Of a DNA stretch of 64,000 nt, positions 11,141 to 63,847 are shown in pieces (position 1 is the stretch's first letter; the number at the start of each line of letters is the position of its first letter). Position numbers and translations under genes: made by a program. The notes under the pieces were generated by a model that was given only the letters and a program-made list of their open reading frames with translations, searched no databases and was not told the DNA's origin. The DNA is from Bacteroidetes bacterium ADurb.Bin145 (GTDB taxonomy: Bacteria; Bacteroidota; Bacteroidia; Bacteroidales; VadinHA17), in the NCBI GenBank assembly GCA_002070505.1, contig MWDJ01000002.1, forward strand, positions 227,216 through 291,215, read 5' to 3'.

Positions 11141-11196
11141 TGTTTGTGCGATTATTAAATTTTATAACTTCAGCTCGGAATTAATAGGCAACACCA

Positions 11197-49307: not shown

Positions 49308-49892
49308 ATGTCGCCAAGACCATTCAGATTACGAAAAATAAGCAACCCACCGGTGATTTCGGGTTTTAAACCTTACGGTAATAAAAAAATTGGAGGTAAA
49401 ACTGAGAGTGTATTTCTACATCTGGAAGAATATGAAGCATTGAGGTTATGCGACTATGAAATGCTTAATCACCATCAGGCTTCGATATTAATGGCAGTAT
49501 CACGACCTACACTAACTCGTATTTACTCAAAAGCAAGGCAGAAAATAGCAGAAGCGCTTGTCCAGGGGAAACAGATTATTATCGAAGGAGGCAAGATATA
49601 TTTTGACAGCGAATGGTATTCCTGCAAAAATTGTGGTTGTTTTTTTAATAATCCTGACAAACAGGAAGAAATAAAAGAATGTCCATTATGCAGGAACAGC
49701 AATATTCTAAATTATGAACCTGATAATGAGGAAACTGAGGAAAATACAACAAGATATTCGGATATATGTATTTGTCCCTCATGTGGTTATGAAACACCTC
49801 ACCGCTGTGGTTGTCCATGCAAGGATGAAATATGCCCTGAATGTGGAACCAATATGGTCAGAAAAGGAAGACCACACAAAAGGAATTTTTAA
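49308..49892 (+). CDS. DUF134 (UPF0251) DNA-binding protein with C-terminal cysteine clusters
   Basis: A 194-residue predicted transcription factor. The N-terminal DUF134 part (1-95) starts 'MSPRPFRLRKISNPP', has 'LHLEEYEALRLCDYE' and the sigma-70-region-4-like helix-turn-helix 'QASILMAVSRPTLTRIYSKAR'. The C-terminal part adds two cysteine groups: C-x2-C-x-C...C-x2-C near 105-130 and C-x-C-x2-C...C-x-C-x3-C...C-x2-C near 150-185, likely zinc or Fe-S sites. It is the first gene of a long plus-strand run and is a candidate local regulator. DUF134 genes often accompany NifX-like and Mrp genes in anaerobes. Confidence 0.88.
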   Translation: MSPRPFRLRKISNPPVISGFKPYGNKKIGGKTESVFLHLEEYEALRLCDYEMLNHHQASILMAVSRPTLTRIYSKARQKIAEALVQGKQIIIEGGKIYFDSEWYSCKNCGCFFNNPDKQEEIKECPLCRNSNILNYEPDNEETEENTTRYSDICICPSCGYETPHRCGCPCKDEICPECGTNMVRKGRPHKRNF

Positions 49893-49904
49893 TAAACAAA
49901 TGAT

Positions 49905-50222
49905 ATGAAAGTAGCTATTACAAGTAATGGGAACAGCCTTGAAAGTAAATTGGATCAGCGTTTTGGCCGTTGTGGATACTTTACTATTTATGATACTGAA
50001 ACTAAAGGGATAGAATTCTTGCCAAATCCCAATAAAGATGCACAGGAAGGGGCAGGACCTGCGTCCGTTCAACTTGTTGCATCACGCAATGTCCAGAAGA
50101 TTATTTCAGGAGAATTCGGAATTAAGATCAAGTCGTTGCTTGACAGTCTGAAAATCCAGATGATTGTTCTCAAACAACCTGAAAAAAGTATAAGAGAAAT
50201 TATCGATATGTTACACAATTAA
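49905..50222 (+). CDS. NifX/NifB-family (orange-protein-like) cofactor-binding protein
   Basis: A 105-residue single domain of the dinitrogenase iron-molybdenum cofactor family: 'MKVAITSNGNSLESKLDQRFGRCGYFTIYD' at the N terminus, with Arg-Phe-Gly-Arg-Cys typical, and 'ASVQLVASRNVQKIISGEFG' in the middle. Relatives are NifX, NafY and the Desulfovibrio orange protein ORP, which holds a Mo-Cu-sulfide cluster. No nitrogenase genes exist here, so metal-cluster carriage in the ORP sense is more likely. It sits 12 bp after the DUF134 gene. Confidence 0.9.
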   Translation: MKVAITSNGNSLESKLDQRFGRCGYFTIYDTETKGIEFLPNPNKDAQEGAGPASVQLVASRNVQKIISGEFGIKIKSLLDSLKIQMIVLKQPEKSIREIIDMLHN

Positions 50223-50236
50223 AAACGGAAGTAATT

Positions 50237-50482
50237 ATGCCAGGTTTTGATCAAACAGGCCCTGTAGGACAAGGTTCCATGACAGGCCGCAGAATGGGTC
50301 GCTGCACAAATTATGGCAGGAATTTGAAAAAAACAGAAAATGCTTCTTCCAACGAACAAAATGACAATACGCCTGAAAATTTACCAGGAAGAGGTTTTGG
50401 TTTTGGCTTGAGAAGAGCAGGATTAGGGAGAGGAAGAGTACGTGGAATAGGACGGCAAAATCGTCTCAGAGAAGGAAATTAA
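50237..50482 (+). CDS. DUF5320-like Gly/Arg-rich small protein
   Basis: An 81-residue protein starting 'MPGFDQTGPVGQGSMTGRRMGRC', the N-terminal signature of DUF5320, followed by a polar segment and a Gly/Arg/Phe-rich tail ('GRGFGFGLRRAGLGRGRVRGIG'). One cysteine is near residue 23. DUF5320 genes are found beside NifX-like and Mrp genes in anaerobes; their function is unknown. The tail resembles RGG-type low-complexity sequence. A second, longer member is at 61123. Confidence 0.85.
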   Translation: MPGFDQTGPVGQGSMTGRRMGRCTNYGRNLKKTENASSNEQNDNTPENLPGRGFGFGLRRAGLGRGRVRGIGRQNRLREGN

Positions 50483-50533
50483 CAAAAACAAGAAGATTAA
50501 TTTAATTAGCTGGTAATAATATTAAAAAATAAA

Positions 50534-50872
50534 ATGAAAAAAATTATTGCAATTCCGTTGGAAAACGGGATTTTGTGTTCACATTTTGGTCATTGTCAGC
50601 AATTTGCAATTATAAATGCTGAGAACAATTCAATTACAGGTGAAACATTTGTCACACCACCACCCCATGAACCCGGATTACTCCCAGCCTGGCTGGCAGA
50701 GAAAGGTGTAACAGATGTTATCGCAGGTGGCATGGGCCAGAGAGCAATTGACCTGTTCAATCAGCAAAAAATAAATGTTTTTGTTGGTGCACCAATAAAA
50801 AAATCAAAAGATCTGGCAAATGACCTTCTTAACAATACCCTTTCGGCCGGAGCTAACTATTGCGATCATTAA
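50534..50872 (+). CDS. second NifX/NifB-family (orange-protein-like) protein
   Basis: A 112-residue member of the same cofactor-binding family, but of another subgroup: 'MKKIIAIPLENGILCSHFGHCQQFAIINAE', 'PHEPGLLPAWLAEKGVTDVIAGGMGQRAIDLF' and the C-terminal 'GANYCDH'. The conserved His-Phe-Gly-His-Cys and Cys-Asp-His residues could bind a metal cluster. Having two subgroups in one operon suggests a donor/acceptor or heteromeric arrangement; that is inference. Confidence 0.9.
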   Translation: MKKIIAIPLENGILCSHFGHCQQFAIINAENNSITGETFVTPPPHEPGLLPAWLAEKGVTDVIAGGMGQRAIDLFNQQKINVFVGAPIKKSKDLANDLLNNTLSAGANYCDH

Positions 50873-50884
50873 TCCTGAAGATAA

Positions 50885-51766
50885 ATGATTCCGGATCACC
50901 GATGTTTTTTTTGCTTCACCAGGGCATTTGAAAAATTGATAGCTAAAGAAAATATCACCAATGAAGCAAAAAATAATTTTATACGTGAAATTATCCTTTT
51001 ATATCACACTAACTGGGATAAGCTTTCGGCTCCTGAGTTTTCAAGGGAGCTTCATTATAAATTAAGAAACTATACCCATAATCATGATCCTTACTTAAAA
51101 GAAAAGAAGGAAAGTAATGATCAGGCGACCAGGATGATCCCAAAGCTGGAAAGGATTGTACGGAAATCATCAAATCCATTTTGTACTGCACTGAAGCTTG
51201 CAATTGCAGGTAATATTATCGACTTCGCAGCTAATGACACTTTTAATCTTCAGGCTACAATTGAGACAGCTCTTGAAACAGAATTTGCCATCGATCACTC
51301 TGAACAACTGGAGAAAGAAATCAGGCGCGCTCATTCTATCCTTTATCTTGGAGATAATGCAGGTGAAATTGTTTTGGACAAACTCTTTATCGAAACGATT
51401 AATCATCCGGGTTTGACCTTTGTTGTAAGAGGAGGCCCGGTAATAAATGACGCCACAATGGATGACGCCGAATATACGGGTATGAAAGAGGCAGCAGATG
51501 TAATTTCAAGCGGATATGACGCAGCATCAACTATTCCTGAAAAATCGAGTAAACAGTTTCAGGAATACTTCAGGAATGCGGATGTTATTATTTCTAAAGG
51601 CCAGGGTAACCTGGAAGGATTGTTCCATTTGAACGATAAAAGAATATTTTTCCTTTTAATGGTCAAATGCGATGTAATGGCAGAATTCCTGAAAGTGGAA
51701 AAAGGCAGCCAGGTAGTTTATAATAATGCCTGTAAAAAAATATATCAAGGTACTTTTACTGACTGA
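50885..51766 (+). CDS. DUF89/ARMT1-like protein
   Basis: A 293-residue protein of the DUF89 family of metal-dependent phosphatases ('damage-control' phosphatases). It begins with a C-x2-C pair ('HRCFFCFTRAFEKL'), and the core has 'LYLGDNAGEIVLDKLFIE' with Asp-Asn near residue 158 and 'VVRGGPVINDATMDDA' plus 'IISKGQGNLEGL', the metal- and phosphate-binding motifs. Bacterial and archaeal DUF89 proteins with the N-terminal cysteines remain uncharacterised. It lies between the second NifX-like gene and the radical SAM gene with gaps of 12 and 2 bp. Confidence 0.85.
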   Translation: MIPDHRCFFCFTRAFEKLIAKENITNEAKNNFIREIILLYHTNWDKLSAPEFSRELHYKLRNYTHNHDPYLKEKKESNDQATRMIPKLERIVRKSSNPFCTALKLAIAGNIIDFAANDTFNLQATIETALETEFAIDHSEQLEKEIRRAHSILYLGDNAGEIVLDKLFIETINHPGLTFVVRGGPVINDATMDDAEYTGMKEAADVISSGYDAASTIPEKSSKQFQEYFRNADVIISKGQGNLEGLFHLNDKRIFFLLMVKCDVMAEFLKVEKGSQVVYNNACKKIYQGTFTD

Positions 51767-51768
51767 AA

Positions 51769-52713
51769 ATGATAAGTTTTGGACCTGTACCATCAAGAAG
51801 ACTGGGGAAAAGCCTTGGGATCAATAATATCATTTCGCCCAAGGCCTGCTCTTATGGATGTGTTTACTGCCAGGTGGGAAAGACAATAAAAAAAAGTATT
51901 AAAAGAGAAACATTTTTTAAATCAGAAATAATCTTTGAAAAAGTCGAAGAGCATCTCAAACGACTCAGTAGTGAAAATTATCCCGATTATCTGACTTTTG
52001 TTTCCAATGGAGAACCCACTCTTGACATAAACCTGGGCAGGAGTATAGAATTATTGAAAAAAATCGGAATTCCGGTAGCCGTAATCACAAATGCTTCATT
52101 ATTGGGCGATGATTCAATAAGAAAAGACCTCAGGCTTTCTGACCTAGTGTCCGTAAAAATGGACGCAGGAGATAACGAAACATGGCAAAAAGTCAACAGT
52201 CCGGCTCCACGACTCGAATTCGAAAAAGTGACAGAAGGCAAAAATTTGTTTGCTTCTGATTTTAAGGGTATTTTATATACTGAAACAATGCTGGTTGAAG
52301 GGTTAAACGACTTCTCTGAGAACTTAATAAACGTGGCAAAGCTGGTTCATGATTTAAATCCGGCTAAAGCATACCTGTCAATTCCAATACGACCCCCTGC
52401 CAGATCCTCGGTGAAAGCGCCAGGCCCGGAAAAGTTGAACCAGGCATGGCAGATATTCAACGATATGAATATCAATACAGAATTTCTTACAGGTTTTGAA
52501 GGCACCAATACCGGATTTACAGGCAATATATATGAAGATATTCTGAATATTACTGCCGTTCATCCATTAAGGGAAGACTCACTGATTAAGCTTTTGCAGA
52601 GTGATAATGCTGACTTCGGAGTGGTTGATTCTCTTATCCGGCAAAGATTAATAAGAATCTCTGTATATGGCGGGGAAAAATTTTATATGAGGGAATATCA
52701 TCTTAATATTTAA
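51769..52713 (+). CDS. radical SAM protein, COG0731-like
   Basis: A 314-residue radical SAM enzyme. The N terminus has 'FGPVPSRRLGKSLGINN' followed by the cluster motif 'KACSYGCVYCQ' (C-x3-C-x2-C, near residue 27-34), the typical COG0731 opening. Further on are 'VSNGEPTLDINLG' (GEPT motif binding SAM) and 'SVKMDAGDNETW'. The C-terminal 80 residues look like a winged helix ('LREDSLIKLLQSDNADFGVVDSLIRQ'). The reaction is unknown. It is 2 bp after the DUF89 gene and 3 bp before the deformylase. Confidence 0.9.
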   Translation: MISFGPVPSRRLGKSLGINNIISPKACSYGCVYCQVGKTIKKSIKRETFFKSEIIFEKVEEHLKRLSSENYPDYLTFVSNGEPTLDINLGRSIELLKKIGIPVAVITNASLLGDDSIRKDLRLSDLVSVKMDAGDNETWQKVNSPAPRLEFEKVTEGKNLFASDFKGILYTETMLVEGLNDFSENLINVAKLVHDLNPAKAYLSIPIRPPARSSVKAPGPEKLNQAWQIFNDMNINTEFLTGFEGTNTGFTGNIYEDILNITAVHPLREDSLIKLLQSDNADFGVVDSLIRQRLIRISVYGGEKFYMREYHLNI

Positions 52714-52716
52714 CAA

Positions 52717-53271
52717 GTGGTTGTTCCAATAATTTTATATGGCTCCTCAGTTCTCAGGAAACATTCAGCAGAAGTGAATGAAAAAGATAATATTCAGGAG
52801 ATCGTTGATTCATTGTTTGCAACTCTTAAAGAAGCTGAAGGAATAGGTCTTGCAGCACCTCAGATCAACATCTTAAAGAGGGCTTTTGTAATTGACACTT
52901 CACCACTAAACGAGCAGGATTTAACCTTAGAGAAATTTGAAGGTATATTCATAAATCCAGTTCTAATTGACCGGGATAGTGAGGATATAATATACCGTGA
53001 GGGGTGCCTGAGTCTCCCGGATATTTTTGAAGAAGTTGTTCGGCCAGAGAAAATATTGGTTAGATATCAGGATATTCGGCTTATAACACATGAAGAAGAA
53101 TTGGATGGAATAAAATCAAGGATTTTCCAGCATGAACTTGATCATCTTGACGGAGTTCTGTTCATTGATAAAATCAGCATATTAAAAAGGAAAATTCTGA
53201 GTGGTAGATTAAATAAGATTAAAAGATTATCAAAGATTCAAAATAACCAGATATATGCCGACACTTTATGA
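52717..53271 (+). CDS. def: peptide deformylase (accessory copy)
   Basis: Fe2+ enzyme that removes the formyl group from new proteins. All three motifs are intact: 'GIGLAAPQ' near residue 42, 'EGCLSLP' near 96 (metal Cys) and 'QHELDHLDG' near 138 (metal His pair and catalytic Glu). The start is GTG at 52717, four bases after the radical SAM stop, and the 3' end overlaps the HdrC-like start by 17 bp. Such tight embedding in a redox operon is unusual; a chromosomal housekeeping def is expected elsewhere. Confidence 0.93.
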   Translation: MVVPIILYGSSVLRKHSAEVNEKDNIQEIVDSLFATLKEAEGIGLAAPQINILKRAFVIDTSPLNEQDLTLEKFEGIFINPVLIDRDSEDIIYREGCLSLPDIFEEVVRPEKILVRYQDIRLITHEEELDGIKSRIFQHELDHLDGVLFIDKISILKRKILSGRLNKIKRLSKIQNNQIYADTL

Positions 53272-53938
53272 AGAATTGGAAAAGGATGTCCGTTACAGGG
53301 AAGGTTTAAAAGCCTGCTTCAATTGCGGTGTTTGCACTGCAATATGCCCGGCAGCTGAAGTAAGCGATTACGATCCCCGGCGAATACTCAACATTGTACA
53401 GGAGAAAAACGATACTGCCCTTGAGGAATTATTAAAAGGTGACGAGATATGGAGATGCGGCGAGTGTCTTTCCTGCAAAACAAGGTGCCCGCGTGGAAAT
53501 ACTCCCTGCTATGTAATTCAGGCATTAAGAGGCGTATCAATTGAAACCGGTTTTTTTATTGAAAGTGAACAGGGCAGAAAACAATTAGCTATTAAGCGAA
53601 CTGTTGGTGATCATATTCTGAAATATGGTTATTGCGTATATATTGATGAAGTCGATCTTGAAATGTATCCTGAACAAGGCCCGGTATGGGATTGGATGAG
53701 GGAAAACAGGGGATCAATTCTGCAGCGGCTTAATACAAGTTATAATAAAGACCAGGCTGGTACTCTTCGTAAAACATCGAAAAAATCTCTTGATGACCTG
53801 AAAAAGATATTTGACGAAACAGGAGGCACACAAAGGTTCGAAAAAATAGAACAATATTCTTCTGTAAAGGCAAAAGAACTTGATAAGGATTTTAAAGAAG
53901 GTAAAGATGAGTACTTCAGGTATTTGTATAATAAATAA
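53255..53938 (+). CDS. HdrC-like 4Fe-4S dicluster protein
   Basis: A 227-residue protein with two 4Fe-4S motifs, 'CFNCGVCTAICPA' near residue 21 and 'CGECLSCKTRCPRGNTP' near 68, in the order and spacing of heterodisulfide reductase subunit C. The last 120 residues are charged and helical, an extension beyond typical HdrC. It overlaps the def gene and precedes the HdrB-like gene by 20 bp, so the two probably form an HdrBC unit transferring electrons to or from a thiol/disulfide substrate. Confidence 0.9.
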   Translation: MPTLYEELEKDVRYREGLKACFNCGVCTAICPAAEVSDYDPRRILNIVQEKNDTALEELLKGDEIWRCGECLSCKTRCPRGNTPCYVIQALRGVSIETGFFIESEQGRKQLAIKRTVGDHILKYGYCVYIDEVDLEMYPEQGPVWDWMRENRGSILQRLNTSYNKDQAGTLRKTSKKSLDDLKKIFDETGGTQRFEKIEQYSSVKAKELDKDFKEGKDEYFRYLYNK

Positions 53939-53958
53939 CAAAACTAAAAGTATATCCT

Positions 53959-55026
53959 GTGATATCCGGGAAAAATAATATTTGGGCTGCATACCAGAAA
54001 GAAATAGCAGATGATCATTATTATTTTGCGCGCAGTTGTATCAGGCAGAATATATTCCCTGCTGCAGAAAATCTGTATTTAAACATTCTGAAGGATGTTC
54101 TGGGTAAAGATATTTTTGACGATATAAAGCAAACTACCTGCACAGGAATAGCATATCATTCAGGGTTAATCCCGATGGAGACCATAATGACTGTTGTCGC
54201 TCGCCAGTTTGCACTGATGAACGAAGCCGGATATGAAAATTTTGTTGTCTCCTGTGTTACATCATTTGGTATTTATGTGGAAATGCTTGAGACATGGAAA
54301 CATTTTCCTGAAACAGAACAAAAGACGCGGGAGGCTCTTAAACGGGCAACTGGTATGACATTCTCGATTCCGAAAAATCTTGTTCATGCAAGTGATGTTA
54401 TCTATAAATTTCGGAAAGAGATAGCCGCAAGATCAAAATACAGGCTGGTAAATACAAATACGGGGGAACCTCTAAAAGTTGTTGATCACATCGGATGCCA
54501 TTATGCAAAGATATTTCCATCACATGGAATAGGCGGAGCTGAATATCCATATGTGTTGGCAGGATTAATTGATGAATTGGGTGGACAACAGGTTGATTAT
54601 CCTGAAAGAAGACACTGTTGTGGGTTTGGATTCAGACAATATTTGCTAAAATCAAACAGGGGTTATTCCGTATCAAATTCTAAAAAGAAATTTGATTCGA
54701 TGCTCGCTTTCAAACCTGACCTTATAATAGCGAATTGTCCCGGTTGTACTTTTTTTCTCGATCGATGGCAATATGTGATCGCTGAACAGGAAGGCATAAC
54801 TTATGGGGACAACGGTTATGGCATCCCTGTTTTGACATATGAAGAGATAGCAGGACTTCTGTTAGGATATGATCCCTGGGATATAGGGTTGCAAACACAC
54901 CAGGTATCAGTCGAACCACTGCTTGAAAAGCTTGGGATCAGATATAATCCGGATCAAAAATATAAAGGTTTCAATGGTGAAGATATCGGGAATCCTGAAC
55001 ATCCGCAGGTATTGAAATGCATTTAG
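53959..55026 (+). CDS. HdrB-like CCG-domain protein
   Basis: A 355-residue protein of the HdrB/LutA (cysteine-rich CCG) type. The C-terminal motif is complete: Cys in 'HIGCHYAK', 39 residues, 'HCCGFG', 38 residues, 'NCPGC'. The N-terminal one is degenerate: the Cys-Cys is Thr-Cys ('TTCTG') and the last C-x2-C is C-V-T-S. In HdrB these motifs hold non-cubane 4Fe-4S clusters that split a disulfide, so here probably one site is active. The start is GTG at 53959. The substrate is not known. Confidence 0.9.
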   Translation: MISGKNNIWAAYQKEIADDHYYFARSCIRQNIFPAAENLYLNILKDVLGKDIFDDIKQTTCTGIAYHSGLIPMETIMTVVARQFALMNEAGYENFVVSCVTSFGIYVEMLETWKHFPETEQKTREALKRATGMTFSIPKNLVHASDVIYKFRKEIAARSKYRLVNTNTGEPLKVVDHIGCHYAKIFPSHGIGGAEYPYVLAGLIDELGGQQVDYPERRHCCGFGFRQYLLKSNRGYSVSNSKKKFDSMLAFKPDLIIANCPGCTFFLDRWQYVIAEQEGITYGDNGYGIPVLTYEEIAGLLLGYDPWDIGLQTHQVSVEPLLEKLGIRYNPDQKYKGFNGEDIGNPEHPQVLKCI

Positions 55027-55098
55027 AATCTATGGTAATTTTCAATGGTATGGAATATTAAAATTCATAAAAACATAGCAATCAATAAACAAGTAAAT

Positions 55099-56454
55099 AT
55101 GAAAACGACTGATGTATTAGTGATCGGAGGAAGTGCTGCAGGTATGGTTGCCGCACTTACAGGAAAATCTTCATGGCCAAAGAAGAGTTTTATTTTAGTT
55201 AAAAAACAAAAGGAAATGATGGTCCCATGCGGAATACCATATATTTTCGGAACATTCGATAGCAGCGATCAGAATTTAATGCCGGTAGACGCCATGCTGG
55301 GGAAAGCTGGCATAGAATCGATTGTTGATGAAGTTGTTAAAATAAATAAGGAAATAAAAACAGTTGATCTTGCCAGTGGAGAAACAATTCAGTATGAAAA
55401 GCTTGTGCTGGCAACCGGATCAATACCTCTCAAACCCAAATGGCTGGTAGGGGGAGAAAAAGAAAATGTATTCGTTATACCCAAAGACAAGATCTATCTT
55501 GATGAAATGAAGAATAAACTTGCTTCATGCAAAAAGGTAGTTATTATTGGAGCAGGCTTCATCGGAGTGGAATTTTCTGATGAACTTATAAAACAAGGGC
55601 ATGAAGTAACACTGGTAGAAAAGCTACCTGATATTTTAATACTTGCATTCGATGTTGAACTGTCAAAGAAAATAGAAGAAATACTTACAATCAGAGGGGT
55701 AAATATTGTAACCGGAAATGGAATCAAAGAAATACTTGGTGAAAAGAAAGTAGAATCAGTTAAACTCGAAAACGGAGATATTATTGAGTCTGATGCAGTA
55801 ATTCTTTCTGTTGGTTATAAACCTAATGTGGAGCTCGCCAGAAAGTCTGAGATTTATGTAGACGAAAGCGGTTTCATTGCTGTAGACGAATATATGCGAA
55901 CTCACATAAAGGATATTTTTGCTGTCGGTGATTGTGCACAGAAACGCGATTTTGTTACACGTGCCAGAGTCTCAACCATGCTTGCCTCAACTGCATGTGC
56001 TGAAGCAAGAATAGCTGGAATGAATCTTTTTAATCTCAATGTTGTTAAGACCTTCAGCGGTACCATTGCTATTTATTCCACAGCAATAGGCAACACCGGT
56101 TTCGGTACAGCTGGCATCACTGAAGCAAGGGCGAAAGCAGAAGGAATTGATTCCATTACTGGAACATTTGAAGGTATTGACCGTCATCCCGGTAACCTTC
56201 CTGATGCGCATAAGCAACTTATCAAACTCATCGCAGCCCGTCAGTCAGGTGTAATAATCGGGGGTGAAGTAATTGGAGGATTAAGTGCTGGCGAACTTAC
56301 CAATGTTATAGGACTCGCAATCCAGAACAGAATGACAGTTAATTCATTACTTACTTCTCAGATAGGGACGCATCCTTGTCTGACAGCCTCACCCGCAGGT
56401 TATCCTTTGATAAAAGCAGCTGAAATAATTGCAGGTAAAATGAGGAACAGATAA
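55099..56454 (+). CDS. CoA-disulfide-reductase/NADH-oxidase-like flavoprotein
   Basis: A 451-residue FAD-dependent pyridine-nucleotide oxidoreductase. The FAD motif is 'VLVIGGSAAGMVAALTG', Cys44 in 'VPCGIPYIFG' is at the position of the single redox-active cysteine of CoA disulfide reductases, the NAD motif is 'VVIIGAGFIGVEFSDEL' near residue 155, and 'IFAVGDCAQ' near 275 is the second FAD motif. The C-terminal dimerisation domain is present. With HdrB/HdrC it could couple NAD(P)H to thiol/disulfide chemistry. I use ATG 55099; the frame extends upstream to 55045 without a fold. Confidence 0.9.
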   Translation: MKTTDVLVIGGSAAGMVAALTGKSSWPKKSFILVKKQKEMMVPCGIPYIFGTFDSSDQNLMPVDAMLGKAGIESIVDEVVKINKEIKTVDLASGETIQYEKLVLATGSIPLKPKWLVGGEKENVFVIPKDKIYLDEMKNKLASCKKVVIIGAGFIGVEFSDELIKQGHEVTLVEKLPDILILAFDVELSKKIEEILTIRGVNIVTGNGIKEILGEKKVESVKLENGDIIESDAVILSVGYKPNVELARKSEIYVDESGFIAVDEYMRTHIKDIFAVGDCAQKRDFVTRARVSTMLASTACAEARIAGMNLFNLNVVKTFSGTIAIYSTAIGNTGFGTAGITEARAKAEGIDSITGTFEGIDRHPGNLPDAHKQLIKLIAARQSGVIIGGEVIGGLSAGELTNVIGLAIQNRMTVNSLLTSQIGTHPCLTASPAGYPLIKAAEIIAGKMRNR

Positions 56455-56543: not shown

Positions 56544-56550
56544 TTGAATT

Positions 56551-56994: not shown

Positions 56995-57862
56995 AATTGC
57001 CATCGCCAGTGGGAAAGGCGGAACAGGTAAAACATTTGTTGCTACAAATATTTTCCATACTCTGGTTAAGAATCAAATTGATGCGGCTCTCGTTGATTGT
57101 GATGCTGAAGCGCCTAATTCTGTTGCTTTCTTTCAAACAAAGCAGGCCAGTGCTTTTAAAGTAACCCAGTTGGTACCGGTTATAGATACCAATGCATGTA
57201 CTTTTTGTGGAAAATGTCAGGAATACTGTAATTATAATGCCATTTTCATCCTGCCTCCAATGAAAATAATCAATGTAATAGAAGATCTCTGTCATGGGTG
57301 CGGAGCATGCAGTGTTGCATGCAAATATGACGCTATTATAGAAAAGCCGGTCTCATTGGGTATGGTTAATTTATATTCAATCAATGGCAAGCCTGCACTC
57401 ATCGAAGCAAGAATGAATATCGGCGTGATGTCACCGGTTCCCATTATAAAAGAAGCTATAAAACAAATCAACGGCCAGGCCGAAATTGCAATTCTTGATT
57501 CTCCCCCCGGCACATCATGTCCTTTTATTCAAACAGTATCAGCTTCCGACTATGTAATTCTTGTGACGGAACCTACTCCATTTGGTTTAAGTGATTTGAA
57601 ACAAAGCATTGATACTCTCATAAAGATTGGTATCCCTTATGGAGTAATAATAAACCGAGCAGGGATAGGGAATTTTGCTGTTTACGATTGGCTGAAGGAG
57701 AACAATATTCCTCTTCTAATGGAAATTCCTTTTGATGAAGAAATTGCCCACATTTATTCCGAGGGAAGAATATTGACTGAAGATAATGTTAATTACAGGA
57801 ATCAGTTTCTGAATTTAATAAAGAAGATCAATCATATAATAAAGAATCAGAAATATGTTTAA
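56987..57862 (+). CDS. MinD/Mrp-family ATPase with inserted 2x[4Fe-4S] ferredoxin domain (first copy)
   Basis: A 291-residue P-loop ATPase: deviant Walker A 'SGKGGTGKT' at residues 8-16, 'LVDCDAEAPN' (Walker A' region) and 'ILDSPPGTSCP' (switch II). A ferredoxin domain is inserted at about 65-115 with 'CTFCGKCQEYC' and 'CHGCGACSVAC'. This layout is that of the MinD proteins of the Desulfovibrio orange-protein complex. It is likely a dimer that loads or moves a metal cluster with ATP. It overlaps its neighbours by 8 bp on both sides. Confidence 0.9.
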   Translation: MIKIAIASGKGGTGKTFVATNIFHTLVKNQIDAALVDCDAEAPNSVAFFQTKQASAFKVTQLVPVIDTNACTFCGKCQEYCNYNAIFILPPMKIINVIEDLCHGCGACSVACKYDAIIEKPVSLGMVNLYSINGKPALIEARMNIGVMSPVPIIKEAIKQINGQAEIAILDSPPGTSCPFIQTVSASDYVILVTEPTPFGLSDLKQSIDTLIKIGIPYGVIINRAGIGNFAVYDWLKENNIPLLMEIPFDEEIAHIYSEGRILTEDNVNYRNQFLNLIKKINHIIKNQKYV

Positions 57863-58259
57863 GCGGATTTTAATGATTGTTTTGAGTATTTATGTTCCGG
57901 CCTCAATATCCGGACAAACCAAATCAGTTAACACCATAGATGCAAATGCACCCAAAATCGTATTCAGTAAAACATCTCATGACTTTGGTGAACTAATCTT
58001 GTATTCCCCTGCATTCTGTGAATTTAAATTCTATAATAAAGGCAGATCACCTCTGATATTATCTGATATTTCTGCTACCTGTGGCTGTACTGTGCCATCC
58101 TGGCCTAAAAAGCCCATTATGCCAGGAGACAGCGATATAATTGTGATTAACTATCTGCCTGACGAAACAGGTATTATTCATAAAAATGTCACTGTTTTTT
58201 CGAATGCAACAAAAATGCCGGTAACATTAGAGCTTAACGGAAAGGTTATAAAAAAATAG
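57855..58259 (+). CDS. DUF1573 exported protein
   Basis: A 134-residue protein with a signal peptide (1-21). The mature part is the DUF1573 Ig-like domain: 'FSKTSHDFGELILYSPAFCEFKFYNKG' and 'LILSDISATCGCTVPSWPKKPIMPGDS' with the C-x-C pair. DUF1573 proteins are abundant surface or periplasmic proteins of Bacteroidota with unknown function. It is embedded, with 8-bp overlap, between the cytosolic ATPase genes, which is unusual for the family. Confidence 0.9.
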   Translation: MFKRILMIVLSIYVPASISGQTKSVNTIDANAPKIVFSKTSHDFGELILYSPAFCEFKFYNKGRSPLILSDISATCGCTVPSWPKKPIMPGDSDIIVINYLPDETGIIHKNVTVFSNATKMPVTLELNGKVIKK

Positions 58260-58270
58260 GAACACACTTC

Positions 58271-59431
58271 ATGAAGGTTTTAATGAGTAGAATTGCCATA
58301 TTATCACGTATTTGTGCGGGATTGGTGTTTATTTTTTCAGGCTTTGTAAAAGCAGTGGATCCGCTGGGCTCGACTTATAAGTTTATTGATTATTTCCATG
58401 CCTTCAATTTGCCATGGCTTGAACAAGCTGCTTTTCCATTGGCAATACTATTAAGCGGATCGGAGTTTTTAATCGGAGTATGTTTGTTGCTGTTTATCCG
58501 GAACAAATTAGCAAACTGGGGTGCTTTATTGTTTATGGCTGGTTTCACTCCGCTTACATTTTGGCTGGCACTTACAAACCCTGTTCAGGATTGCGGTTGT
58601 TTTGGCGATGCAATTATTCTCTCAAACTGGCAGACGTTTTATAAAAATATACTAATATCTGCTCTTGTGATAATTTCTTTTATTTATCGTAATTCCACAA
58701 AACATTGGATGTCAATCAAAGCAGAATGGGTAATTGCTGCCTCGACAGCTTTGTTAATCACTGGTTTTTCATTGTTTAATTACTGGCATCTTCCTGTTAT
58801 CGATTTCAGGCCTTATAAGATCGGAACAAACATTCCTGAGGGAATGATAATTCCGGAAGATGCACCCGCCAGTGTATATGAGCAATATTTTACATTACTT
58901 GATACCATTTCCGGTAAAAAGGTTTCAATAGAAAGCAACATTTATTCGAGCGATTCAATATACTGGAAGAAAGGTACAACCTGGAAATTTATTTCATCAA
59001 CTGAACCTGTAATGGTAAAAAGAGGCTATCAGCCTGCTATTCATGATTTTAGTATTTCTTCACTTTCAGGTGAAGATATTACAGAGAAGGTTCTTGCAGA
59101 TACGGGTTATTACTTTATTATTGTTGCATATGACCTCAAAAAATCTGAAATAAAATATCAGCCAGAAATAAACAGACTCTTTAATCAGGCTGTTGCCGAT
59201 AACCATAAATTTGTTTGCCTTACAGCCGTTACAGGCAGTGAAATAGAACAATTTAAAACCGCTCATAATGCAGTCTATGAATTTTATATCACTGATCCTA
59301 TAACCCTTAAAACCATAATCCGTGCAAATCCCGGGCTGATAATTTTGCATAAAGGTACCATATTAGCAAAATGGGCATCAAATGATATTCCCGGTTATGA
59401 TAAAATTAAGATGAAATACCTGAAGAAATGA
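58271..59431 (+). CDS. BT_3928 family DoxX/MauE-like membrane protein
   Basis: A 386-residue membrane protein. About five helices in residues 1-170 form a DoxX/MauE-like domain: 'LVFIFSGFVKAVDPLGSTYKFIDYF' is the characteristic start and 'NPVQDCGCFGDAIILSNWQTFYKN' supplies the conserved Cys-Gly-Cys-Phe-Gly-Asp. The rest is a thioredoxin-fold-like soluble domain (about 230-386). The family is widespread in Bacteroidales and may work in periplasmic thiol redox or methylamine-dehydrogenase-type maturation. Its TGA overlaps the next ATG (ATGA). Confidence 0.88.
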   Translation: MKVLMSRIAILSRICAGLVFIFSGFVKAVDPLGSTYKFIDYFHAFNLPWLEQAAFPLAILLSGSEFLIGVCLLLFIRNKLANWGALLFMAGFTPLTFWLALTNPVQDCGCFGDAIILSNWQTFYKNILISALVIISFIYRNSTKHWMSIKAEWVIAASTALLITGFSLFNYWHLPVIDFRPYKIGTNIPEGMIIPEDAPASVYEQYFTLLDTISGKKVSIESNIYSSDSIYWKKGTTWKFISSTEPVMVKRGYQPAIHDFSISSLSGEDITEKVLADTGYYFIIVAYDLKKSEIKYQPEINRLFNQAVADNHKFVCLTAVTGSEIEQFKTAHNAVYEFYITDPITLKTIIRANPGLIILHKGTILAKWASNDIPGYDKIKMKYLKK

Positions 59432-60300
59432 CACAGATAGCTGTAATAAGCGGAAAGGGAGGCACAGGTAAATCGAGCATTGCTGCTGCATTTGCCACAT
59501 TAAACGGGAAAGTTGTTGTTGCCGACTGTGATGTTGATGCAGCAAACCTTTATTTGTTATTTAATCCTATACATGAAGAAGAAATAGTCTATATCAGTGG
59601 TAGTAAAGCAGTTATAAATTATTCTTTATGTACCGGTTGCGGTATCTGTGAAAGTTATTGCCGGTTTGATGCCATATCAATAATAGACAAAAAGGTGGTT
59701 ATTTCAGAAATATCCTGTGATGGTTGCTTCCTCTGTTCACATATATGCCCTGAAAAAGCCATAACCATGGTTCGGAATGATAAGAGCAGAATGTATTCAG
59801 GATCATTTCGCAATGGCAAAATGGTCTACGGCCGGCTTGCCCCGGGTGAAGAAAATTCGGGTAAACTGGTGAATATGGTACGGGAAAAAGCTAAAGAGGT
59901 TGCAAAAATAAATAACCTGGATACTACTATACTTGACGGTCCGCCGGGAATTGGTTGTCCGGTAATATCCACCATTACAGGAGTGGACAAGGTCGTGATT
60001 GTTACAGAACCAACTATCTCCGGCCTTCACGATTTGCAAAGAACAATTGAAATTGTTAAAAAATTTAGTCTGCCTGCATTTGTTGTAATCAATAAATATA
60101 ATCTTAATTCTTCAATGAGCAACCAAATTGAAAAGTGGTGTACTCAAAATGAAATCACAATCGCAGGGAAACTGCCTTTTGACAAACAAATGACAGAGGC
60201 AATGGTACAGTTAAAAAGCATAACAGAATTTAATCCCTATCTTGAAATCAGTAACAAAATTAAAGTAATATGGAAAAAAATCTTAAATCAAAAGAAGTGA
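59428..60300 (+). CDS. MinD/Mrp-family ATPase with inserted 2x[4Fe-4S] ferredoxin domain (second copy)
   Basis: A 290-residue paralogue of the ATPase at 56987: Walker A 'SGKGGTGKSS', 'VADCDVDAANL', ferredoxin motifs 'CTGCGICESYC' near residue 68 and 'CDGCFLCSHICP' near 97, and 'ILDGPPGIGCP'. Sequence between the two paralogues differs enough for a hetero-pair, as in Desulfovibrio where two such MinDs work with the orange protein. It starts in the stop codon of the BT_3928-like gene. Confidence 0.92.
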   Translation: MTQIAVISGKGGTGKSSIAAAFATLNGKVVVADCDVDAANLYLLFNPIHEEEIVYISGSKAVINYSLCTGCGICESYCRFDAISIIDKKVVISEISCDGCFLCSHICPEKAITMVRNDKSRMYSGSFRNGKMVYGRLAPGEENSGKLVNMVREKAKEVAKINNLDTTILDGPPGIGCPVISTITGVDKVVIVTEPTISGLHDLQRTIEIVKKFSLPAFVVINKYNLNSSMSNQIEKWCTQNEITIAGKLPFDKQMTEAMVQLKSITEFNPYLEISNKIKVIWKKILNQKK

Positions 60301-61106
60301 GTGATCTGTTTAAAAAAATCCCGATGGAAGGGATTAAAAACATTATTGTTGTTGCGTCAGGGAAAGGCGGCGTTGGAAAATCGACAGTGGCAGCAAATCT
60401 GGCAATTGCATTTGCAAGAAACGGACTAAGTACTGCGCTTGTTGATGCAGATATTTTTGGCCCGTCAATACCAAAAATGTTCGGGATAGAAGATGCAAGA
60501 CCAGATGTTACGGCCCTTGGAGATAAAGAAATGATTTTCCCGATAGTTAAATACGGGGTTAAAATCATTTCGATAGGTTTTTTTATCGACCGCAGTCAAT
60601 CACTTATTTGGAGGGGACCAATGGCCGGTAAAGCTGTTACCCAGCTTTTTGAAGACACCCAGTGGGGAGATATTGATTACATGATCATTGATTTTCCACC
60701 CGGAACCAGCGATATCCAGCTCACAACTGTTCAAAAACTTAAACTTACAGGAGCAATAATAGTGACCACACCACAGGAAATATCTCTGAATGATGCCAGA
60801 AAGGCAACTTCCATGTTCAAAAATCCTGATCTTAATGTCCCTGTTATTGGAATTATTGAAAATATGTCATGGTTTACCCCCGAAAAACACCCCGACGAAA
60901 TATACTATCTCTTCGGCAAGGGAGGAGGCCTTAAACTGGCAAAAGAATTCGATACAGTTCTGCTTGGACAGATACCCCTTGTATTGGAGGTAGGTGAGGC
61001 TGCCGAAAAGGGATTGAGTGTATTCAGCCAAAAAAATAAATCTGTGGTAGCTGCATTTGAGCAGATAGCAGAAATGATAATTTCAAGAACAGAGGTCAGA
61101 TCCTGA
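60270..61106 (+). CDS. Mrp/NBP35-family P-loop ATPase without cysteines
   Basis: A 278-residue Mrp/ApbC-type ATPase: 'VVASGKGGVGKSTVAANLAIAFA' (Walker A near residue 30), 'LVDADIFGPSIPKMFG' and 'IDFPPGTSDIQLT' (switch II). The usual C-terminal C-x2-C that holds the bridging 4Fe-4S cluster is absent; that region reads 'ENMSWFTPEKHPDEIYYLFGKGGG', and I find no cysteine in the whole protein. The N-terminal DUF59 domain of the housekeeping Bacteroidota Mrp is also lacking. It overlaps the preceding gene by 31 bp and ends the plus-strand run. Confidence 0.92.
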   Translation: MEKNLKSKEVSDLFKKIPMEGIKNIIVVASGKGGVGKSTVAANLAIAFARNGLSTALVDADIFGPSIPKMFGIEDARPDVTALGDKEMIFPIVKYGVKIISIGFFIDRSQSLIWRGPMAGKAVTQLFEDTQWGDIDYMIIDFPPGTSDIQLTTVQKLKLTGAIIVTTPQEISLNDARKATSMFKNPDLNVPVIGIIENMSWFTPEKHPDEIYYLFGKGGGLKLAKEFDTVLLGQIPLVLEVGEAAEKGLSVFSQKNKSVVAAFEQIAEMIISRTEVRS

Positions 61107-61122
61107 AGTGCTTTATCGACTG

Positions 61123-61476
61123 TCACTCTTTCTCCAGTTCACCCAGTCGTTTTTCAATATCTTTCTGCGAGCGGATAAGTGCGTCTGCCTGAGATTTAAG
61201 CATTTTGATCTCATCTTCTTTGCTTATTGAATGCGTCCAGGGGTAGCCCGGTACGAATCCCTGGTTATAAGCTCCCGAATGGAAGCCATATCCATAGTCT
61301 CTGCCCCAACCCATACCTCTTCCGAATCCGGCTCTCCTGCCGAATCCCATAGCTCTTCCCATTCCACCTCCAGCTCCTTTTGTAAATCCCGGGGAATCAA
61401 ATCCCTCACAATACCCAAATGCTCTTCCGGTTCTGGGACCTTGTCCCACTGGTCCGGTACGATCTCCTCCTGGCAT
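61123..61476 (-). CDS. DUF5320 family protein with C-terminal coiled coil
   Basis: A 117-residue protein, second DUF5320 member here. It begins 'MPGGDRTGPVGQGPRTGRAFGYCEG', followed by a Gly/Arg/Phe/Tyr-rich stretch ('GGGMGRAMGFGRRAGFGRGMGWGRDYGYG') and a C-terminal charged helix (about 85-117) likely to form a coiled coil. It is convergent with the Mrp gene (16-bp gap). Its own upstream region is interrupted by the IS element at 61519-62923, beyond which lies a promoter with the shared operator. Confidence 0.88.
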   Translation of the reverse strand: MPGGDRTGPVGQGPRTGRAFGYCEGFDSPGFTKGAGGGMGRAMGFGRRAGFGRGMGWGRDYGYGFHSGAYNQGFVPGYPWTHSISKEDEIKMLKSQADALIRSQKDIEKRLGELEKE

Positions 61477-61652
61477 AATTTTTAATTTTATAGTTTATTT
61501 TAATTATTAAATGTAATATGTCATAAGTTCGTTTACATTTTCTAAGCAAAATACTGTATCAAGAGTTCGTTTACATTCTTTGTACTTGCCCCCTAGGGGG
61601 CGCCGGCTCTAAGGAGAGCAAAATATCATAAGTTCATTGACATTTTGGAATT

Positions 61653-62453
61653 TCAGTCAACAGGCATCAGAAAGGGGAATACATGAAAAACAATATGGTC
61701 TCTTTCGATTAGCAGGATATGGTTTTCTATAACTATCCGAGCGATTACATAGCTGTACATTAATTCCTTTTTAAGCTCAAACTTCATATCCAGGATCCTG
61801 ATCATACAATCACTCCGGATGAACCTGATAAAAACTATTTCACCTTCAGTCATTGGGATTCGTTGATTCGGGCTGGGGGTGGCATTTAGTTTAAAGCATG
61901 GAGAGTCTGACACCATTTGATTAGGTGTGTTTCCTCCGGTGGTTGAATATCGATGGTTCTGATTATGAAAGGCCATGAACTCAACAGCACGCTCCTTTAG
62001 TTGCTCAAAGGATGAAAAGGTTTGGGTATTCAGAAAATACTTTTGCACGTTGTCGTTAAATTTCTCAATCACGCCATTGCGCCATGGTTCGGCAGGAGGA
62101 ATAAATACTGGAGTAATGTTTTCTGACAACGCAAGCCGTATTAATGGGCCAAAGCTTCTTGGGTAACGATTACTCCCTCTAAAAGACAGCTCATTGTCCA
62201 TTTGTAAATAATCAGGCATTGAAAAGTCTATCCAGAATTGGCATACGGCAGGCATTACGCTTTTTGAAGATTTATTTGGGATAGGGTAAACCCCGGCATA
62301 ATGTGGCTCAACCGCAATAATATTAAGTATGTAATACCTACAGCCCCCTCTGAGATACTTCGGTCCAATAAGGTCCATCTGTTGAACATTAGTGAAGTAA
62401 TCAGGATATTCTTTTTTTTTGCTTCTCTTTTTGTCCCCTTGCCTAAAAGCCAT
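61653..62453 (-). CDS. IS transposase, DDE integrase-core part
   Basis: A 266-residue rve-type catalytic domain. Candidate DDE residues are the Asp in 'QQMDLIGP', the Asp in 'LQMDNELSF' and the Glu in 'NGVIEKFND', with 'FMAFHNQNHRYSTTGG' further on. The start ATG 62453 overlaps the stop of the upstream HTH part (AATGGCTTTTAG), in the +1 frame. Either this is a coupled two-gene transposase, or a single transposase gene split by a frameshift. Confidence 0.8.
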   Translation of the reverse strand: MAFRQGDKKRSKKKEYPDYFTNVQQMDLIGPKYLRGGCRYYILNIIAVEPHYAGVYPIPNKSSKSVMPAVCQFWIDFSMPDYLQMDNELSFRGSNRYPRSFGPLIRLALSENITPVFIPPAEPWRNGVIEKFNDNVQKYFLNTQTFSSFEQLKERAVEFMAFHNQNHRYSTTGGNTPNQMVSDSPCFKLNATPSPNQRIPMTEGEIVFIRFIRSDCMIRILDMKFELKKELMYSYVIARIVIENHILLIERDHIVFHVFPFLMPVD

Positions 62454-62799
62454 TGCGTTGGATGACCCTATTAATTGTAGACATTGAAGGAGGGATAATA
62501 TTCAATCGCTTAAACTCATAAAGAATATTCAAAGCACCTTTTTGTGCATATTTCTGCTCTTTAAGGTTATTTCGAATAGATACGATTGTTCTTTCAATAT
62601 CTGCCGGGATCCTGCTAATTGGCTTATTCGGTGCATTGGACAGTGATTGATACCAACCTTCGCTTCCTGTCTTATACCGTTGAAGCCATTTATGAACCCA
62701 CTGACGAGTTTTACCTAAAGTGTCAGCAATGTCTTTAATCGGAATGCTTTTTAGATGTAATTCGACAGCCTGTTTTCTGAGTATCTCTTCGTCTTTCAT
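62443..62799 (-). CDS. IS transposase, helix-turn-helix part
   Basis: An N-terminal DNA-binding region of about 118 residues: 'IPIKDIADTLGKTRQWVHKWLQRYK' is an HTH of the transposase type and 'LNIIPPSMSTINRVIQRNG' a second one. I prefer ATG 62799; a TTG at 62820 would add seven residues. In related elements the HTH and DDE parts are one protein of about 390 residues; here they are split at an AATGGCTTTTAG overlap. Confidence 0.78.
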   Translation of the reverse strand: MKDEEILRKQAVELHLKSIPIKDIADTLGKTRQWVHKWLQRYKTGSEGWYQSLSNAPNKPISRIPADIERTIVSIRNNLKEQKYAQKGALNILYEFKRLNIIPPSMSTINRVIQRNGF

Positions 62800-62969
62800 C
62801 TTTTTTTGACGAAGTTCCAAAATTTCAAAGAACGATTTTTTTAAAATATATGTAAACGAACTGGTGAAACAAATTTTTACCTTAGATGTAAACGAACTAC
62901 TGACATTTTGATGTAAACGAACTATAGAAATTTATCAATTAAATGTTATTTGGTTACTGGTTTATCCTG

Positions 62970-63001
62970 TAAAGATACAAAATAAAATGAACATATGTTC
63001 A
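62970..63001 (-). promoter_or_regulatory. promoter with perfect TGAACATATGTTCA operator, stranded by the IS
   Basis: On the minus strand TATCTTTA (62977-62970) is a near-match -7 box, and the perfect 14-bp palindrome TGAACATATGTTCA (62988-63001) covers the expected -33 position. The next minus-strand gene is the IS transposase. Removing the IS would bring the DUF5320 gene (start 61476) to about 90-100 bp downstream, which suggests that this was its promoter. Confidence 0.65.
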
Positions 63002-63067
63002 CTTTAATTAAAAATATTTATTATTCCCCGAATGTTGACTTAAGTTTGTTTAAAATTATTGATGATC

Positions 63068-63847
63068 TTAGAACTCATACATATCCCCTGATTTAACCTG
63101 CCTAATGCTGAACGCTTCATAAAAAGCTGATAAGGCATGAAGTTCCGTGCAATGTGAAGGTAAAACATGCTTTACTTTATTATCTTTCAGGTATCGTATC
63201 GTCTCCTTTGTCTGACTATCAATTTCTTTCAGATGAAACCCTCCTATTATCCCATATATGTTACTTATCCCGGTGACCTTTTTTGCATGCTCCAGGGTAT
63301 TAACAACCCCTGAATGTCCGCAGCCTGTTACAACAAATAAACCTTCAGACAGTATCAGGGCCAATGCACTGTCGTCTATTACAAAATCAGGAGACTCGTC
63401 TTCAAAAATGAAAGAAGTGCTTTTTGATTCAAAGTCTGTTCTCCTGGGTATTTGTCCAAGGAAGATTATTTTTTCTGTAATCTTATAAGGTTGTTCACTG
63501 TTTTTCAAATTAAATTTCTTCTGCAATTCATCCCGTGTGTTTTTCAGTCCTATATACCTGTTGTCCTTCCTGCTGTAACGCTTCACAAAACATCCGGGGT
63601 GACAAACCAGGGAGCCTTCATGCAGATAACTCAACCCATTGCCGTGATCATAATGGCCATGACTCAGAATAATCATATCAATATTATCAATACTGATATT
63701 CATCTTTTTTGCATTTTTCATGAAAAGGTCGCTCTGACCTGTATCAAACAAAATTCGTTTTCCATGATGCTCAATTAGATATGAGAGCCCGTGCTCGGCC
63801 ATTGTATAAGATCCGGCATGATTTTCCGTCAGAACTGAAATCTTCAT
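63068..63847 (-). CDS. MBL-fold metallohydrolase (DHPMP-synthase-like)
   Basis: A 259-residue metallo-beta-lactamase-fold protein. The metal motif 'LSHGHYDHGNGL' is near residue 62, 'LVCHPGCF' near 82, 'VVTGCGHSGVVNTLEHA' near 173 and a final 'VLPSHCTE' near 230 supply the remaining ligands. This subgroup is annotated as 7,8-dihydropterin-6-methyl-4-aminobenzene 5'-phosphate synthase-like and occurs in anaerobes beside NifX-like/Mrp genes; the true substrate is unknown. Its promoter carries the shared operator, placing it in the same regulon as the plus-strand cluster. Confidence 0.88.
   Translation of the reverse strand: MKISVLTENHAGSYTMAEHGLSYLIEHHGKRILFDTGQSDLFMKNAKKMNISIDNIDMIILSHGHYDHGNGLSYLHEGSLVCHPGCFVKRYSRKDNRYIGLKNTRDELQKKFNLKNSEQPYKITEKIIFLGQIPRRTDFESKSTSFIFEDESPDFVIDDSALALILSEGLFVVTGCGHSGVVNTLEHAKKVTGISNIYGIIGGFHLKEIDSQTKETIRYLKDNKVKHVLPSHCTELHALSAFYEAFSIRQVKSGDMYEF

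Follow-up and report, generated by a model that had tools for sequence, protein, structure and literature searches.

An orange protein-type MinD/ORP gene cluster with thiol-redox genes and a promoter palindrome in a member of the Bacteroidota

Relationship to the described orange protein complex

The closest described relative of the system reported here is the orange protein (ORP) complex of Desulfovibrio vulgaris Hildenborough, described as a five-protein complex (Orp3, Orp4, Orp5, Orp8 and Orp9) with a fused MrpORP, encoded in two divergent operons under sigma-54 control (PMC6345978). As late as 2019 a review termed the orange protein's function unknown (PMC6650914), and in the literature on MinD proteins with an inserted ferredoxin domain CD2169 of C. 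difficile is reported to be raised in vivo (PMC3445491). Here we describe a related gene cluster in a stretch of 64,000 nucleotides, hereafter the window, from Bacteroidetes bacterium ADurb.Bin145 (assembly GCA_002070505.1, contig MWDJ01000002.1, positions 227,216 to 291,215), which takes up one end of a contig of 291 kb in a genome of 3.95 Mb that is 92.5% complete. Sixteen co-directional genes occupy 49308-61106 on the forward strand, and because they share one direction and are separated by gaps of only -31 to 96 nt, a single transcript is likely. By gene content this run represents a widely distributed form of the orange protein metal-sulfur system, accompanied by genes for thiol redox. 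A sequence-only reading of this DNA had likened its core to the Desulfovibrio complex, a likeness borne out by the two MinDs with ferredoxin motifs, the two NifX-like proteins and the Mrp, and every protein that it named was recovered in its place from open reading frames (ORFs), Pfam and NCBIfam; the operator described below, and the likely role of DUF134, had escaped it.

The window and the Desulfovibrio complex have in common a pair of MinD-like ATPases, each carrying two ferredoxin motifs, and, encoded with them, proteins of the NifX/ORP family and an Mrp domain (PMC6345978). Comparison with published descriptions also shows that the window adds CGGC, DUF5320, HdrCB, CoADR, DUF89 and radical SAM proteins. 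Its Mrp is devoid of cysteine, and in place of an MrpORP fusion the Mrp and the Di-Nase domain (ORPb) are encoded by two genes at a distance of 9.4 kb. In place of two divergent operons the core is co-directional and associated with a DUF134-linked palindrome. The sigma-54 pattern TGGCACN5TTGC, with two mismatches allowed, gave 34 matches in the window against 42.6 expected, and none on the plus strand between 44300 and 51200. When set against the MrpORP model (NF041136), ORPb matches the C-terminal and the window Mrp the N-terminal domain, both under the 450-bit cut-off; unlike MrpORP the two are not fused, and the Mrp has no CXXC. The window system thus reads as a variant of the known ORP complex, with which it shares the MinD pair and the ORPs but not the fusion, the divergent operons or the CXXC. 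No description of this gene combination or of its operator was found in open-licence PMC literature on ORP, on inserted-ferredoxin MinD, on CoA-persulfide reductase/Hdr/TusA or on DUF134/UPF0251.

A conserved core in relatives

The second MinD-like protein (MinD2) was used as the query in 59 genomes of the window's family and in 198 genomes of its order. Neighborhoods were examined in 37 loci of relatives from the family set and in 80 named loci, the latter being the best 80 of 520 confirmed MinD2 relatives and hence biased to close relatives. The sets overlap, several of the 80 loci being family-set genomes (L071 is G028, and L079 is G040), while L113 and L115 come from the same assembly. Genes in these loci were called by a simple ORF picker, so that some starts are wrong, and many neighbors carry no annotation. 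Gene frequencies are based on the 32 of the 80 loci that have full flanks, in which MinD2, as the query, is present by definition.

MinD2 is present in 38 of the 59 family genomes and 73 of the 198 order genomes with the same neighbors, and most MinD2-positive genomes have a weaker second match, MinD1, directly before it. This recurrence exceeds chance. Among the fully flanked loci the core comprises DUF134 (32 of 32), ORPa (31), MinD1 (30) and ORPb (29), along with DUF5320 and MinD2, and often Mrp (24) and CGGC (17). Its order in the closer relatives is nearly fixed, and is that of the window itself: DUF134 (49308-49892), ORPa (49905-50222), a first DUF5320 protein recognized by Pfam (50237-50482), ORPb (50534-50872), a variable slot, CGGC (56551-56994), MinD1 (56987-57862), MinD2 (59428-60300) and Mrp (60270-61106), all on the plus strand. 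The variable slot after ORPb holds, in the window, DUF89, a radical SAM protein, peptide deformylase, HdrCB and CoADR. Accessory genes recur in the same 32 loci at lower frequency: DUF89 in 16, radical SAM in 10, an orthologue of CoADR in 8, an MBL-fold gene in 6, and HdrC and HdrB in 5 each. An orange protein whose MinD partner occurs in 73 of 198 genomes of one order comes with recurrent redox partners and, as described next, with a sharply defined operator.

A probable palindromic operator in the predicted operon promoter

Upstream of DUF134, on the plus strand, lies a predicted operon promoter (49253-49284) made up of TTTG (49253-49256), a 20-nt spacer and TATCTTTG (49277-49284), matching the Bacteroidota -33/-7 promoter pattern. 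Within its spacer, 32 bp upstream of DUF134, is the palindrome TGAACGCAGGTTCA (49262-49275), of the form TGAAC-N4-GTTCA, which we recognized first by comparing the window spacer with that of the relative L052. A palindrome held between the two promoter elements occupies the position that a repressor site would take. It is followed, 26 bp downstream, by a second palindrome with one mismatch, TGAACTATTGCTCA (49288-49301). Tandem exact palindromes with the same 26-bp spacing precede DUF134 in L052 (1790-1829), L056 (4131-4170) and L083 (2754-2793); the second copy is slightly degenerate in other loci, the window included. Two further copies accompany the genes beyond the operon. The palindrome TGAACATATGTTCA (62988-63001) lies in the spacer of the convergent DUF5320 gene, D5320b, and was presumably once directly upstream of it, its L052 counterpart being at 11176, 149 bp upstream of D5320b; TGAACGAATGTTCA (63887-63900) stands 39 bp upstream of the MBL gene, with an equivalent L052 site at 12113. 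It is this palindrome, in the operon promoter and before D5320b and MBL, that is new here and that points to DUF134 as the switch of the operon.

The motif is strongly over-represented. The window has three copies of TGAAC-N4-GTTCA against 0.07 expected, a number reached in none of 100 shuffles, and the 80 named loci have 52; ten simulations under a second-order Markov model gave 0-3, and 20 shuffles averaged 1.15 with a maximum of 6. The gene start nearest to these 52 sites is that of DUF134 in 35 cases, D5320b in 6, ORPa in 4, MBL and peroxiredoxin in 2 each, HdrC in 1 and others in 2. When operon leaders were defined as genes preceded by a gap of at least 60 nt, and operators were counted with at most one mismatch, the operator was found before 49 of 56 DUF134 leaders, 7 of 9 D5320b, 5 of 11 ORPa, 4 of 11 MBL and 3 of 13 peroxiredoxin leaders, as compared with 11 of 292 unlabelled leaders, none of 34 for ORPb and none of 7 for CoADR. 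A TAnnTTTG-like sequence follows 27 of the 52 sites, and TTTG and TAnnTTTG bracket 18 of them; in two other sets, 8 of 26 and 0 of 10 sites were so bracketed.

A search of the order genomes for the operator with a downstream TAnnTTTG yielded 79 sites in 65 of the 198 genomes, against one for the reversed control, and 41 of these 65 genomes have MinD2. Thirty sites lie within 12 kb of MinD2. Another 21 are elsewhere in MinD2 genomes and 28 are in genomes that lack it, and the regulon is therefore wider than the ORP complex. From the 79 sites, 30 were fetched and examined for downstream genes: DUF134 was the first gene after 22, and no recognized system gene lay downstream of the sites in L199 and L204.

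DUF134 (Pfam E 7e-24) combines a helix-turn-helix (HTH) part with a Cys-rich, zinc-ribbon-like part; C106 and C109 are conserved in 62 of 64 sequences. When its sequence was compared with PDB, the best match reached only E 0.41. In open-licence PMC papers, mentions of DUF134, DUF5320 or CGGC include a list of archaeal proteins lacking known function (PMC7565180) and a gene table (PMC8347963), and a UPF0251 protein, Tsac_2480, is named in a published mutation table. DUF134 is usually the first gene after the palindrome, even in genomes without MinD2, and no other core protein has an HTH; on the simplest reading it is probably the regulator that acts there. A family of unknown function thereby gains a specific, testable role, and the operator allows the whole system to be mapped, including operons without MinD. 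As a separate observation, the first gene downstream of the palindrome in L203, and the second in L193, encodes a Cys-rich protein beginning MNCT(S/T)C.

Linkage of redox genes to the core

The sequence-only reading had held that recurrence of HdrCB, CoADR and CGGC beside the core would support a common system, and that the reverse, redox genes and MinD/NifX core never co-occurring outside this genome, would refute it. Linkage was assessed in the identical 198 order genomes for each query (MinD2, CoADR, CGGC and HdrB), leaving out the weak MinD2 hits of G121 and G253, which reduces the MinD2 genomes from 73 to 71. CoADR, with orthologues defined at E<=1e-140, occurs in 21 genomes, 20 of which also have MinD2 (background 71 of 198), and lies within 10 kb of it in 10 of these 20, where 0.11 would be expected. 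CGGC occurs in 30 genomes, 27 with MinD2 and 15 of those within 10 kb. Window-type HdrB, defined by an identity of 73% or more, was found in 7 genomes, with MinD2 in 6 and within 10 kb in 4. The negative control, HdrB of the other type (59-69% identity), was not linked: it is present in 62 genomes, 19 of them with MinD2, and within 10 kb in only 1 of the 19. Chance co-location was accordingly ruled out for HdrB of the window type and accepted for the other. The three redox families thus do recur beside the core in other genomes, in differing relative positions. The window contig itself (L162, 153000-172900) also encodes a second pair of HdrC and HdrB, with identities of 53 and 61%, next to a flavoprotein, a CCG protein of 633 aa and a short ORF that resembles ferredoxin; such HdrB are unlinked to MinD elsewhere.

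The placement of CoADR (55045-56454, plus strand; a flavoprotein resembling CoA-disulfide and CoA-persulfide reductases) varies from before CGGC, as in the window, to after Mrp, MinD2 or ORPa in other genomes or genera. In addition, seven loci (L119, L121, L124, L138, L140, L144 and L145) carry a remote relative beside the ORP core, six of 560-602 aa and the copy in L121 cut by a contig end; a rhodanese domain was confirmed for L124 only. The differing positions and the remote relatives suggest that the linkage was rebuilt more than once, through repeated recruitment of CoA-disulfide/persulfide reductases. The FAD/NAD and dimerization domains and the active Cys are common to CoADR and to known reductases of this class (3kd9, 4fx9, 8a56), the Cys of the CGxP motif (CGIP in the window) being present in 20 of 20 sequences; in contrast to those enzymes, CoADR scores 220.6 bits (cut-off 578.8) and 226.2 bits (cut-off 458), and has no rhodanese domain.

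As in HdrBC, the window HdrC (53255-53938) has two 4Fe-4S motifs and HdrB (53959-55026; both plus strand) an intact C-terminal CCG site. By the CCG cluster-site pattern, all five Cys are kept there and three of five at the N-terminal site, and the remaining Cys are conserved in 8 of 8 aligned sequences. Unlike described HdrBC, the pair has this degenerate N-terminal site, scores under all equivalog cut-offs and lies in an operon without HdrA. The six Cys of CGGC are each conserved in 30 of 30 sequences, and its fold model (pLDDT 95.2) gave no PDB match at E<=0.001, and hence no function from structure.

ORP proteins and ATPases of the core

ORPa and ORPb are the only PF02579 (Nitro_FeMo-Co) matches in the source genome at E<=0.001, and they differ from one another. 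The part of NF041136 that represents the C-terminal domain of MrpORP (positions 265-365) matches ORPb at E 3e-35 and ORPa at only 6.5e-7, so that ORPb can be viewed as a free-standing counterpart of that domain. ORPa, a NifX/ORP-like protein with a single conserved Cys in an FGRC motif (58 of 60 relatives), matches the PDB entries 1rdu (9e-11), 1eo1 (6e-9) and 2wfb (9e-7), the last being the orange protein. For the MrpORP domain that corresponds to ORPb, a [3Fe-4S] cluster and the motifs CxHFGHC, CDH and PPPHxPG are reported (PMC6345978). The motif CxHFGHC, which is that of the Di-Nase domain, is present in 55 of 61 relatives of ORPb, in which C21 and C110 are conserved in 62 of 62.

Both MinD proteins are P-loop ATPases with two inserted 4Fe-4S motifs: GKGG[TVI]GK with at least two CxxCxxCxxxC motifs was found in 68 of 68 MinD1 and 80 of 80 MinD2 relatives as well as in the two window proteins. 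Ten of ten Cys are invariant in MinD1 and ten of eleven in MinD2, including the Cys of the DCD motif and that of switch II (DxPPGxxCP; Cys178 in 69 of 69 MinD1, Cys177 in 81 of 81 MinD2). The switch-II Cys lies seven residues past the Walker B Asp, a position that is occupied by Cys132 in the nitrogenase Fe protein, NifH. The model of MinD2 (pLDDT 93.7) matches MinD and NifH structures, and the P-loop fold and a Cys at this spacing are common to MinD1, MinD2 and Fe proteins of the NifH type; they differ from NifH in their inserted ferredoxin domain, and MinD structures rank slightly above NifH among the PDB matches. A counterpart of NifH Cys97 is missing, the part of MinD1 and MinD2 that leads from the ferredoxin insert to switch II having no further conserved Cys. 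The Cys spacing, through which alone the equivalence with Cys132 is drawn, and the NifH structure matches together suggest that the pair may act as an ATP-gated Fe-S protein, fed from the ferredoxin domain inserted in it.

The window Mrp was identified from its sequence and domain profiles, and has a deviant Walker A motif, GKGGVGKS (pattern GKGGhGK[ST]). A CXXC just past ENM was found in none of 48 cluster Mrp proteins, 26 of which are without any Cys. In ten remote cluster Mrp (46-49% identical) a CXXC lies about 45 residues further on, and the second, longer Mrp of the source genome (L151, G000 contig 31), which likewise has none right after ENM, has CESC about 45 residues on. The window Mrp has lost that CXXC, and, because it has no Cys, Mrp proteins of this type cannot act as cluster carriers in the way published. 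Transfer of Fe-S clusters from Mrp to ORP, as published, may for this reason not be general.

Proposed role and alternatives

The biochemical function that we infer from these sequences is the following. DUF134 would bind the palindrome and repress the operon that it belongs to; repression would be lifted when a signal from metal, sulfur or an oxidant acts on the Cys-rich half of DUF134. Metal-sulfur clusters would be carried by ORPa and ORPb, and the MinD pair, as Fe-S ATPases, would accept electrons through the inserted ferredoxin domains and couple them to ATP-dependent loading or reduction of the ORP clusters. NADH and low-molecular thiols could be the source from which CoADR and HdrCB deliver electrons or reduced sulfur, while CGGC might serve as an additional metal or cluster carrier. 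The system as a whole would assemble or repair clusters in anaerobes during changing sulfide, metal or oxygen stress. On balance we lean, by a modest degree, towards this proposal of a DUF134-controlled system that keeps metal-sulfur clusters assembled or repaired through ORPs, MinD pair, CoADR, HdrCB and CGGC. It is doubtful that a sharper version holds in both its parts, namely that a metal-sulfur/thiol-redox regulon found across anaerobic Bacteroidota has DUF134 as its dedicated regulator, acting at TGAAC-N4-GTTCA within the promoter, and that the two MinDs form a NifH-like reductase, driven by ATP and fused to ferredoxin, which loads or recharges ORP clusters with electrons from CoADR and HdrCB. 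The sequence-only reading had likewise proposed a metal-sulfur carrier coupled to a thiol/disulfide redox chain, and had included all the listed genes in one system. That membership now extends plausibly to the core, CoADR and CGGC, and in part to HdrCB (at the core in 7 of 13 family genomes), and not to three passengers treated below.

Several observations weigh against the proposal. The regulon reaches beyond the ORP complex, and the Mrp lacks the Cys of the published Fe-S carrier Mrp of Desulfovibrio. The CDH motif near the end of ORPb is kept in only 30 of 61 relatives and PPPHxPG in 23 of 61. The HTH part of DUF134 matches Sigma70_r4 weakly (E 0.0046, below cut-off). HdrB beside the core is a minority state (5 of the 32 loci), and DUF89 and the palindrome accompany CoADR in just one, L170, of the six stretches examined away from the core (L170-L175). 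The 92.5% complete source genome gave no match at E<=1e-60 to HdrA of the TusA-HdrA module, and the genomes compared are related, so that p-values overstate independence.

It is possible, though somewhat unlikely, that the cluster is instead a loose stress island of anaerobes, in which genes for Fe-S, thiol and cofactor repair share one regulon without forming a single complex or pathway. Such a view would accommodate the variable accessory pool of the 80 loci, in which peroxiredoxin (19), CobO-like (15), thioesterase-like (12, labelled by inspection), ZIP (10) and Cys/Met pyridoxal phosphate (PLP) enzyme (9) genes were counted, and the occurrence of the operator before DUF134-led operons with HdrC, OsmC-like or ORP genes in genomes lacking a MinD2 hit. 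However, the nearly fixed succession DUF134-ORPa-DUF5320-ORPb-(CGGC)-MinD1-MinD2 goes beyond the needs of an island.

HdrCB and CoADR might, rather, belong to a separate thiol/sulfur energy pathway (a TusA-MvhD-HdrA module) and merely ride with the ORP operon, which we consider improbable. Of the 13 family genomes with window-type HdrCB, 3 have it away from the core and 3 lack MinD2 altogether. In the seven off-core stretches examined (L163-L169, of which L165-L167 are cut by contig ends) the pair mostly has DUF89, D5320b and DUF134 as companions, with HdrA-type genes in the vicinity; in L165-L169 it stands together with DUF89 and D5320b, and mostly with radical SAM and MBL too, with HdrA-type genes and a second HdrC nearby. 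MvhD is encoded close by in L164, L168 and L169, and TusA in L164 and L168, and a sulfur-carrier-linked Hdr complex is possible in these Bacteroidota relatives (L164-L169). On the other hand, the palindrome precedes DUF89 or D5320b in L165-L169, so that control is apparently shared, and the source genome has HdrCB at the core with the HdrA of the module undetected. Since that HdrA is undetected and the CoADR gene adjoins HdrCB, CoADR would be a natural candidate partner for HdrCB in this genome. The proposal above is also favored by G036, where CoADR lies on a different contig from the core, in a DUF89-CoADR pair (L170, 7344 onward) with a palindrome 39 bp upstream. In L163 an Mrp of 81% identity follows HdrCB. 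HdrA-type flavoproteins, an HTH gene and a second HdrC were also noted near HdrCB in L164 (8698-14642) and in L165-L169.

Nor do we think it probable that another regulator, of the Crp/Fnr or TetR type, binds the palindrome and that DUF134 is no more than one of its common targets. Palindromes of this type are common for Crp/Fnr and TetR regulators, and a Crp-like gene, so labelled by inspection, is present in the off-core stretches L164, L168 and L169. Yet among the 14 sites fetched from genomes that lack MinD2, 11 have DUF134 as the next gene and 1 has it as the second, and no HTH protein occurs among the other core families. Furthermore, of the ten palindromes in the source genome (the reversed pattern gives two), seven fall inside reading frames and the three intergenic ones all lie in this cluster.

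A role of the MinD/ORP complex in placing the division septum or the chromosome, with the redox genes as unrelated neighbors, appears very unlikely: a division role has been suggested for the Desulfovibrio complex (PMC4672049; PMC6345978), the MinD2 model has a MinD-type fold, and the C-terminal stretches are slightly more amphipathic (0.56 in MinD1, 0.62 in MinD2) than the chance maximum of about 0.52-0.53, but in the model this helix is folded into the domain, the eight ferredoxin Cys and the switch-II Cys that are invariant in both MinDs would be unneeded by a spatial regulator, and the named recurrent neighbor families, many single neighbors being unannotated, all have to do with redox, sulfur, cofactors or metals.

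Accessory and neighboring genes

Two of the recurrent accessory genes follow ORPb directly: a DUF89/ARMT1-like phosphatase recognized by Pfam (50885-51766) and a radical SAM protein with the motif CSYGCVYC (51769-52713). Three other genes of the operon were ruled out as members of the system because they are too rare among the fully flanked loci. These are the peptide deformylase (52717-53271; 4 of 32), whose catalytic motifs are intact, a DUF1573 protein (57855-58259; 2 of 32) and, between the MinD genes, a BT_3928 family protein (58271-59431; 451 bits against a cut-off of 250; 1 of 32). All five are encoded on the plus strand.

Beyond the operon lie D5320b (61123-61476, minus strand; Pfam), an insertion sequence (IS) element and the gene for an MBL-fold metallohydrolase (63068-63847, minus strand; Pfam), the last of which the text of the sequence-only reading did not name. 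The IS481-like element (61507-62942, ends approximate) has about AGTTCGTTTACAT repeated three times at each end and a transposase split over two overlapping frames on the minus strand (61653-62453 and 62443-62820). As the spacer between D5320b and MBL measures 1591 bp in the window compared with 259 bp in L052, the element has inserted into this spacer, and it now separates D5320b from the operator at 62988.

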